From NCBI RefSeq assembly GCF_900156165.1, contig NZ_FTMY01000007.1, positions 1 through 64,000 on the forward strand: 64,000 bases of DNA. The letters run 5' to 3'. This DNA comes from Pseudacidovorax sp. RU35E (lineage in GTDB: Bacteria; Pseudomonadota; Gammaproteobacteria; Burkholderiales; Burkholderiaceae_C). The notes beneath the pieces are model-generated. The model was not told where the DNA came from, did not search any database, and saw only the letters and a program-made list of their open reading frames with translations. Shown here one piece after another: positions 62,661 through 64,000 of this stretch. A program made the position numbers and the translations under genes. Within the stretch, counting starts at the first letter, position 1; each line of letters starts with the position of its first letter.

Positions 62661-62750
62661 TTGCAAGACCCGAGCACCGCCCTGCCGCCGCCGGCCAGCG
62701 CCGACTTCTCCGCCCATACGCCGATGATGGCGGGGCGTGCGCTACTCTGA
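62661..62750 (+). pseudogene. mutS: 5' fragment of mutS, cut by the right-edge insertion
   Basis: From a TTG at 62661 the frame reads [24 protein letters not shown] and then GRALL and a stop at 62750. The [11 protein letters not shown] stretch matches the start of Burkholderiales MutS, where AQYL or QQYL would follow. The break falls after about 24 codons, at 62732. The start codon is uncertain (no good ribosome site, no ATG in frame). The rest of mutS should lie beyond the far end of the inserted element. If so, the cell lacks normal mismatch-recognition protein unless the element excises. Confidence 0.75.
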
Positions 62751-62830
62751 AAAAGCACGCCTCGTCAGCAGACCTACGCCAAAAGCTACGCCACGACAGG
62801 CACCCGCCGAACCTCGAAACCGCCCTAGAA

Positions 62831-62850
62831 TACTGTACGGATTATCAGTA
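62831..62850. promoter_or_regulatory. LexA-like operator
   Basis: Sequence TACTGTACGGATTATCAGTA: inverted TACTG/CAGTA arms, extended by one base pair on each side to ATACTG/CAGTAT. It fits the TACTG-N10-CAGTA layout of enterobacterial SOS boxes, with one difference in the CTG-T/A-CAG inner positions. A TAGAAT -10 candidate overlaps its left end. It lies 39 bases upstream of the next gene, and no other LexA-like site was seen in the window. Confidence 0.65.
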
Positions 62851-62888
62851 TGTGGGCAGTACACCGACTTCGCCTTCGCGGCACCCGA

Positions 62889-63305
62889 ATGGACAAGACG
62901 TGGATCGCAGCAGACGTCCACGTCGGCCGGCTGCGCATGGAAGAGCGAGACTTCGACCCTCGGCCCGCGCGCAAGCGCATGTCCGCCTATCTTGGCTGGC
63001 CAGACTCACGCGAGGGCTTCGTAATCCCGCCGCTGCAGCTGGCCAGGGTCGTCAAGATCATCGACCGCGGGGTGCTGATCACCGGCTTCGAGCTGCGCGA
63101 GTCGTCGTACGAGCCGAAGACGATCCGGCGAGAGCGTTTTGCGCAGACCTGGTGGTGTCTGCCCGTGCTCTTCGATGAGATGCAGGCAGCCGACCCGGTT
63201 GCGCCGCCGGCGCCGCCGGCACCGGCGGCGCGAGAGGACTGGCGCATGCGATCCTCTCGGGAGTACATGGAGCGGATCGGGCTGCTGCCGCCCGACTCGA
63301 TCTAG
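62889..63305 (+). CDS. Unknown protein downstream of a LexA-like box
   Basis: 138 residues from MDKTWIAADVHVGRLRMEER, or up to 13 residues more if the ATG at 62850 (inside the operator) is used. Features: a basic patch (RPARKRM), a hydrophobic strand (VVKIIDRGVLITGFELRESS), the pattern RERFAQTWWCLPVLFDE, and a Pro/Ala linker (APPAPPAPAA). I do not recognise a family. The operator suggests induction by DNA damage. Convergent with the spanin genes, overlapping Rz1 by 4 bases. Confidence 0.7.
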   Translation: MDKTWIAADVHVGRLRMEERDFDPRPARKRMSAYLGWPDSREGFVIPPLQLARVVKIIDRGVLITGFELRESSYEPKTIRRERFAQTWWCLPVLFDEMQAADPVAPPAPPAPAAREDWRMRSSREYMERIGLLPPDSI

Positions 63306-63568
63306 CGCCCCAGGGGCGCAGTACACGCGGCCAACGCCGCCTCCAGCTCGGATTCGTATCCTTCACGCAGCAGCAGCTCAGCTTGAGCCGCCTGCACCCA
63401 GTGGTCGACGTCGACGCCCGACCGAAGCGCATCGGTCGGCATGACGGGCCGCGGCGGCGCCTGTACCCGGCATTCGACCGGGAGCGGCACGCTGACTCGG
63501 GTGGACGGCGCCGTGCTGCATGCCACCAGCGCGGCCGTCAGCGGGGCCAGGAAGAGCACGCGGGTCAT
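63302..63568 (-). CDS. Rz1-like outer-membrane spanin lipoprotein
   Basis: 88 residues from MTRVLFLAPLTAALVACSTA, signal peptide with a perfect lipobox LVAC (Cys17). A Pro-rich stretch (VPLPVECRVQAPPRPVMPTD) follows, typical of o-spanins. Its start overlaps the Rz-like gene's stop (ATGA), the usual layout of separated or overlapping spanin pairs. Lysis protein that fuses inner and outer membranes with Rz. Confidence 0.78.
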   Translation of the reverse strand: MTRVLFLAPLTAALVACSTAPSTRVSVPLPVECRVQAPPRPVMPTDALRSGVDVDHWVQAAQAELLLREGYESELEAALAACTAPLGR

Positions 63569-63921
63569 GGCGCAGCCCTTCCCCTCAACCAGGCGTCGAC
63601 GCGCGCCTGGGCGCTCGCGCACGCATCGCCGGGCACGGCCGGCGGCGTGGACAGGATCGTCTGCGCCAGAGCCTGGTGCGCGCGCGCCTTGGCGGCCGCT
63701 GCGGCCTGGTCCTTCTTCGCGGCCGCAGCGCGCTGGTCGGCCAGGTCGCGCAGATCCTGCGTGGCATCGCTGCAGGCCGAAGCATCGCCTCGCGCTTCAT
63801 CGCGCTGGCCACGCAGCTCGGTGGCCGCGGTGCGCGCCTGCAGCCAAGCCCAACCCATGCCGGCGTTGCCGGCCACGCTGATGGCCAGAGCCACCAGAAG
63901 CGCCTGCATCGCGGCAGTCAT
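63565..63921 (-). CDS. Rz-like inner-membrane spanin
   Basis: 118 residues from MTAAMQALLVALAISVAGNA: an N-terminal transmembrane segment (residues 5-28), then a long Ala/Gln/Lys/Asp-rich coiled coil (ELRGQRDEARGDASACSDAT, then DQRAAAAKKDQAAAAAKARA). The size and layout fit phage i-spanins. It overlaps the start of Rz1 and the end of an upstream gene (ATGA), so three lysis genes appear to be coupled. Confidence 0.78.
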   Translation of the reverse strand: MTAAMQALLVALAISVAGNAGMGWAWLQARTAATELRGQRDEARGDASACSDATQDLRDLADQRAAAAKKDQAAAAAKARAHQALAQTILSTPPAVPGDACASAQARVDAWLRGRAAP

Positions 63922-64000
63922 GGAAAGGCCAGTTCGGCGGCCGCGATAGCGTCGCGCGCGGGCAAGCCCAGGAACACCAGGCGCGTGGCGTGCCGGCGCC
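63918..64000 (-). CDS. C-terminal end of the gene upstream of Rz, off the right edge
   Basis: Last 26 codons only (ending ARDAIAAAELAFP). Its TGA overlaps the Rz ATG. By position in phage lysis cassettes it may be a lysozyme, holin or hydrolase, but the fragment is too short to identify. Confidence 0.5.
   Translation of the reverse strand, partial: RRHATRLVFLGLPARDAIAAAELAFP

Follow-up and report, generated by a model that had tools for sequence, protein, structure and literature searches.

What becomes of a mismatch-repair gene when a phage inserts into its 5′ end? The window analyzed here opens a 342,794-base contig, of which it covers 64,000 bases (window and contig coordinates are identical), and closes on such a locus, a short mutS-like start followed by foreign DNA. 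The first-pass annotation proposed a mutator switch of the kind known for SpyCI at mutL, in which MutS is not made while the element is integrated and is made once it has excised. Followed beyond the window to the rest of the gene, the locus suggests a different arrangement. It very probably holds a temperate tailed phage that integrates at the HTPMM codons of mutS and carries a substitute mutS 5′ end, and full-length MutS is still possible in the lysogen.

Insertion site, junctions, and gene content

The features that define the insertion are as follows.

60768–62537 (+): host thiamine pyrophosphate (TPP) enzyme gene in the left flank, with three TPP-enzyme Pfam domains above cut-off
62661–62732 (+): orphaned host mutS 5′ end (the stub), 24 codons from an in-frame TTG, the presumed start codon
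62724–62732 (+): attL core ATGATGGCG, identical to the attR core at contig position 105072–105080
62733–64000: left end of the prophage, which extends as far as about 105,071 on the contig
62775–62792 (+): two TACGCC repeats that presumably serve as arm-type sites for the integrase

Over residues 152–589, the part inside the compared flank, the TPP enzyme is 94–98% identical in four sister species (L006, L007, L008, and L020). These species present the empty site: an uninterrupted mutS lies directly 3′ of the same gene, and their DNA closely matches the stub as far as the core and then continues as mutS, not as the sequence found here. A fifth sister species, L009, retains the end of the TPP-enzyme gene, farther upstream of mutS. 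As first annotated, the mutS-like stub ends at 62732. It ends there at the core, after which the stub frame runs from HTPMMA into phage-derived GRALL* and stops 11 residues past the start of HTPMM. The rest of mutS, from the HTPMM region onward, was found on the same contig at 105,069–107,663, with the core repeated as that annotation had anticipated for the DNA beyond 64000. The left junction reads from CATACGCCGATGATGGCG into phage DNA and the right junction from CACACGCCCATGATGGCG into mutS, and the element between the stub and the mutS body measures 42,348 bases.

The insertion point falls in the mutS codons for HTPMM(Q/A)Q and leaves the host mutS start orphaned upstream of the element. 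Uninterrupted identity between attL and attR comprises the nine bases of ATGATGGCG, and no exact same-strand repeat of 12 bases or more was found between 62,620–62,800 and the examined DNA beyond 100,000. All five elements for which two ends are available, including this one, have TACGCC repeats at each end, in one orientation or the other. The first codons past the core vary in L006, L008, and L009 (CAATATTTACGG or CAGTATTTACGG versus CAGTACCTGCGC); these differences may have been left by earlier rounds of integration and excision, or may reflect nothing more than drift.

Further genes at the left end, and two landmarks beyond the window, are listed here.

63302–63568 (−): Rz1-like outer-membrane spanin lipoprotein, with lipobox LVAC, named from its anatomy
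63565–63921 (−): Rz-like inner-membrane spanin, with a membrane segment and a coiled-coil-like stretch recognized by eye
63918–64541 (−): endolysin (phage lysozyme) gene, whose 3′ part, 63918–64000, lies in the window; phrog_7 E 4.3e-37, PF00959 E 4.6e-30
78,839–80,194: major head (capsid) protein gene, by PHROGs
81,091–82,386: portal gene, by PHROGs

Prophage genes were picked by a simple codon-position script that may miss small genes. PHROGs profiles recognize, on the tail side, tail fibre, tail, tape measure, major tail, tail terminator, neck, and head-tail adaptor proteins; for head and packaging, the major head protein, head protease, portal, and terminase large subunit; for regulation and replication, helicase/primase, CII-like and CI-like regulators, ParB-like, and excisionase-like proteins; and for lysis and integration, endolysin, holin or holin-like protein, and integrase. 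The integrase gene adjoins mutS in divergent orientation. The Rz/Rz1 pair suggested earlier stands as an overlapping pair (63302–63921) that adjoins the phage lysozyme and a holin-like gene, but its names come from anatomy and position and are not supplied by PHROGs or Pfam: the Rz1-like gene matches phrog_3580, a family of unknown function, on a longer frame (E 5.9e-14) and has no Pfam match, and the Rz-like protein has no family match in either collection. IMG/VR lists a viral contig (41,948 bases) whose integrase is 100% identical over 421 residues; this element, or something very close to it, has thus been catalogued before.

With both junctions and a phage gene set in hand, the prophage proposed for the 5′ end of mutS is established at the level of sequence. 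It might be a dead remnant, fixed permanently, whose mutS has inherited a new start, and some relatives do lack a recognizable left stub. Here, the presence of head, tail, packaging, lysis, and lysogeny genes, with the core and arm-like repeats at both ends, makes a remnant unlikely, and a phage capable of excision is the reading that we prefer.

Three further observations concern gene content. A DUF5677 gene at contig 102,617–103,558 (−), between int and the early genes (PF18928, E 7.3e-13), has a low third-position GC (0.50) and is likely to be recent cargo. Two related helicase/primase (VapE-like) genes lie on opposite strands, at contig 86,404–89,217 (−) and 92,835–94,082 (+), and share about 58% DNA identity over 813 bases. 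The genome also encodes a second integrase of the same family (G000:C17:540957-542225), 47% identical, with no mutS motif in its flanks.

The mutS frame in the integrated and excised states

The right end of the element is in frame with the mutS body, which gives a fused open frame of 914–918 amino acids. MutS domains I, II, III, IV, and V all score above their Pfam cut-offs in the 914-aa frame. A search of the whole assembly (5,685,444 bases, 28 contigs) for MutS domain V returned a single match, at contig 106,920–107,480, within the 918-aa open frame, in the downstream part of the interrupted gene. By this search there is no second, intact mutS in the 5.69-Mb assembly; such a copy would have spoken against the first-pass reading.

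Ahead of HTPMM, the phage right end encodes LQEKSPQDQASTTPDFLH, where the host stub has 18 residues of its own. A TTG is aligned 18 codons before HTPMM on both the phage and the host side, and we regard it as the likely start, a choice favored by 7 of 18 distinct right ends, including this one, that have an ATG or TTG at exactly that distance. The choice is uncertain, as the element offers other in-frame starts 39 (ATG), 34 (GTG), 24 (GTG), and 2 (TTG) codons ahead of HTPMM, and the candidates in certain relatives are poor (GTG at 61 codons in L033 and at 8 in L031). In all 18 right ends, the frame ahead of HTPMM is open and offers one or more in-frame ATG, GTG, or TTG codons.

We propose that a tyrosine integrase targets the HTPMM codons for recombination and that the phage attachment site carries the substitute mutS 5′ end. 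Integration would leave the first 24 host codons as a stub, while phage upstream sequence and, probably, 18 phage codons would take the place of the DNA before HTPMM. Excision would rejoin the host start to mutS in frame. Joining the two host flanks yields a predicted empty site with mutS in one frame, and the predicted empty sites are in frame in all five elements with both ends found. Since the mutS frame would be open in either state, the predicted changes concern only the upstream region and first codons, and excision would exchange one mutS upstream region for another. On this reading, the phage would be able to excise, and the fused gene would be expressed and would yield working MutS.

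Elements of this kind have a precedent. Chu et al. (2017; PMC5296598) report that the HTPMMQQ motif of mutS harbors mobile elements in hundreds of Beta- and Gammaproteobacteria; their strains include V. splendidus 12B01, B. multivorans CF2, P. putida F1, and E. coli 536. In their account, the mutS promoter and start come from the element, and excision was detected in four strains and not in E. norvegicus FF-162. The integrated state of V. splendidus 12B01 has a functional mutS, and excision with a 2-bp loss makes a mutator; excision in three other strains is scarless. The HTPMM site, the orphaned host start, the element-supplied in-frame start, and the integrase beside mutS are common to those elements and this one. 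The B. multivorans CF2 element is, moreover, described as a putative prophage with scarless excision. Differences lie in the host and in the retroelement carried inside the element here. A putative prophage at the same mutS codons was also reported in 2008 in B. pseudomallei MSHR305, as genomic island GI8c (PMC2612704); its 15-bp repeat ACGCCGATGATGCAG compares with ACGCC(G/C)ATGATGGCG here, where the identical core is shorter (9 bases). This kind of insertion is already known (PMC5296598, PMC2612704), and a few further details are added here.

These comparisons bear directly on the direction of any switch. The severed host start codons are what one would expect if integration abolished MutS, and a consensus promoter scan found none in either the phage-side or the host-side mutS upstream region, so that a weak or silent phage-side start is conceivable. 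The fused frame is nevertheless intact with all five MutS domains, every one of the 18 right ends has an in-frame start codon in the open stretch before HTPMM, and the integrated state in Vibrio has a functional mutS (PMC5296598). We therefore consider it very improbable that integration turns MutS off and excision turns it on, and the open frame speaks against the statement that MutS is not made when the element is integrated. The Vibrio example cited at first pass is indeed a mutS element with a mutator state, but of reverse polarity, as it is excision that makes the mutator (PMC5296598). SpyCI of S. pyogenes, described as a prophage in the same paper, is likewise a phage-like element in a mismatch-repair region; integrated, it halts mutL transcription, whereas the mutS frame here stays open with the phage integrated and is predicted to be open after excision.

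A switch of the 12B01 type, in which the integrated gene works and excision leaves a frameshifted mutS, is equally hard to sustain. This element and that of 12B01 share motif and architecture, but the excised mutS is predicted from sequence to be in frame in five of five two-ended elements, this one among them, where excision in 12B01 leaves a 2-bp frameshift, and scarless excision is reported for three other strains (PMC5296598). What sets the two states apart under the preferred reading, a phage that supplies its own in-frame mutS start, is the sequence upstream. MutS level may differ between the integrated and excised states, and integrase binding to the right-end TACGCC repeats, which lie upstream of mutS, might affect mutS transcription.

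LexA-type boxes at the two ends

The LexA box consensus is taken here as CTGT-N8-ACAG. The first-pass annotation had pointed to a LexA-like box near the left junction and a gene of unknown function behind it, and both are present.

62833–62848: LexA-like box CTGTACGGATTATCAG, CTGT-N8-TCAG, with one mismatch to CTGT-N8-ACAG
62850–63305 (+): left-end phage gene of 151 aa, or shorter from ATG 62889, directly behind the box

A box with at most one mismatch occurs by chance in 3–8% of random 250-base windows (four of these elements), and the single box at 62833–62848 is, alone, weak evidence. Boxes of this quality lie within 300 bases of attL in three of five elements (this one; G034, exact; and G322, one mismatch), with none in that interval in G307 or the Delftia element. 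The Acidovorax phage Aval has an exact box at the end corresponding to attL. Boxes of the same form, with 0–1 mismatch, also stand in the lexA upstream regions of five genomes including this one, and the TCAG variant is found ahead of lexA in two relatives, Delftia and G231. Taken together, the recurrence of the attL-side box, its presence in Aval, and the boxes before lexA make LexA control of the left-end gene plausible. The protein encoded by that gene has no match in PHROGs, Pfam, or PADLOC. The left-end proteins of G034 and G322 are related to each other (31%, E about 1e-8), but the protein here has no BLAST match to either and is only weakly similar in a forced alignment, and we rejected a single conserved family.

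The box had also been read as support for regulated excision. It precedes the left-end gene, with about 41 kb between it and int in the integrated prophage, whose integrase lies at the opposite end, and it stands before neither int nor mutS; we do not retain it as an excision trigger.

On the mutS side, an exact LexA-type box is present in 2 of the 18 distinct right ends (L028 and L050), in both cases 102 bases before HTPMM and with differing spacers. Across 330 bases, the other 16, this element's included, lack any box within one mismatch of the consensus. Among 13 mutS upstream regions of the genus set that lack this integrase, there were no exact boxes and one with a single mismatch. The L028 and L050 integrases are related (70%), so the two boxes may have one origin. 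The box at 102 bases in the Delftia branch (L050 and G231) has no counterpart upstream of the Delftia host mutS, where any box in the 330 bases before the host's stub has at least two mismatches. In L028 and L050, the boxes could place mismatch repair under SOS control; among the papers listed in a literature search, titles and abstract openings give no evident report of a LexA-controlled mutS.

The best box upstream of this element's mutS has two mismatches, and SOS control of the gene finds no support here. This bears on a milder alternative, in which the exchange of upstream regions, with no frameshift, alters the level or timing of MutS enough to change the mutation rate of the lysogen. 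The upstream region and first codons do differ between the two states, and two right ends carry the exact box; set against the missing box with fewer than two mismatches here, we hold this effect to be possible but somewhat doubtful.

Relatives of the element and its retroelement

In the genus set of 15 genomes, a related integrase lies in the examined mutS flank of two (this genome and G010). At an integrase threshold of E up to 1e-40, 25 of 399 genomes in a family sample carry a related integrase, at 27 places. The examined integrase flank contains a mutS start, confirmed as mutS, at 12 of these places, in 12 genomes; among the other 15 places, L029 appears to be cut by the contig end on its would-be mutS side. 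Two of six named loci adjoin mutS, in Variovorax paradoxus ISL-79 and in a Delftia acidovorans MAG. An order sample of 399 genomes, which overlaps the family sample, gave 10 places in 7 genomes at E up to 1e-70 and one newly found integrase beside mutS (L107). The earlier remark that no such case was known in Comamonadaceae does not hold in view of the 12 family genomes, the Variovorax and Delftia loci, and the site in phage Aval; among the papers listed for that family, none is evidently on mutS-site elements. Judged by these relatives, the host itself probably belongs to the family. The mutS landing site is in use in many genera of the host's family.

Besides the element described here, four have both ends: G034 (42,273 bases), G322 (39,786), G307 (37,679), and the Delftia element (38,155). 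No left stub was found within 59.7–89.6 kb in G408, G239, and G211, nor in G010 in 39.8 kb of a 58.9-kb contig, a stretch reaching nearly to the contig end, and the simple two-ended form is thus not seen for every member. On metagenomic phage contigs L121 and L119/L123 (the latter a single contig), a mutS-like start is followed by unrelated sequence and a stop codon in place of mutS, an arrangement that is attP-like. The isolated phage Aval (OP131589), whose integrase is 58% identical to this element's, has in its record a mutS-like start, MQEKTEPNQQLAGIPISEHTPMMH, ending HTPMMH and a stop, beside the integrase, again as expected of attP; the comparison with this element covers the two ends of the Aval genome. 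Aval is reported to have myovirus morphology, and the word mutS occurs 0 times in the main text of its description (PMC11619371). Phage KS9, with an integrase 56% identical, was rejected as a mutS phage, as no mutS motif lies in the 240 bases before int.

Within the prophage, at contig 94,339–96,962 (L003:14339-16962), lies a diversity-generating retroelement.

94,339–94,737 and 94,756–95,208: two small retroelement target genes
95,245–95,610: Avd-like protein gene (PF22296, E 1.9e-7, 32.0 bits, below the 40-bit cut-off)
about 95,781–95,872: template repeat, beside the reverse transcriptase

The reverse transcriptase scores 56.9 bits with PF00078 (cut-off 29.6). Over 92 bases, 13 of 24 template adenines and 1 of 68 other bases are changed in VR1, and 9 of 24 and 0 of 68, respectively, in VR2; template and variable repeats thus differ only, or nearly only, at template adenines, as is characteristic of such retroelements. 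Both target genes are on the early/lysogeny side of the prophage, with about 26 kb between them and the tail-fibre gene.

The retroelement's products are mismatched and hence an expected target of MutS, so phage control of MutS could set how much diversity the retroelement yields. In E. coli, mutS has been deleted to help keep retroelement-made substitutions, and a kanamycin repair assay that depends on an 18-base insertion was unaffected by mutS (PMC12875486). A broader proposition is that these phages rewire mismatch repair beyond using it as a landing site, through mutS upstream regions of their own, an SOS-wired branch (Delftia L050 and G231), and retroelement diversity set via MutS. We think this improbable on present evidence; were mutS expression rewired in this way, lysogeny would change the supply of mutations with the gene unbroken. 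The direction of the proposed mutator switch is corrected in any event, and the right ends provide concrete alternatives to the host's mutS upstream region that lend themselves to testing, including two with exact LexA-type boxes.

The examined regions of the G034, G322, and G307 elements contain no match to the reverse transcriptase of this prophage. With 4–5 candidates scored in most genomes listed, reverse transcriptases (E up to 1e-20) were found in at least 16 of 399 family genomes and the mutS-site integrase in at least 12, with both in 2 (hypergeometric P of 2 or more = 0.079). A general link between the two is not supported at this value, and the two co-occurring cases have related elements. 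The related mutS-site element of G010 also has a retroelement, with a reverse transcriptase 75% identical to the one described here.
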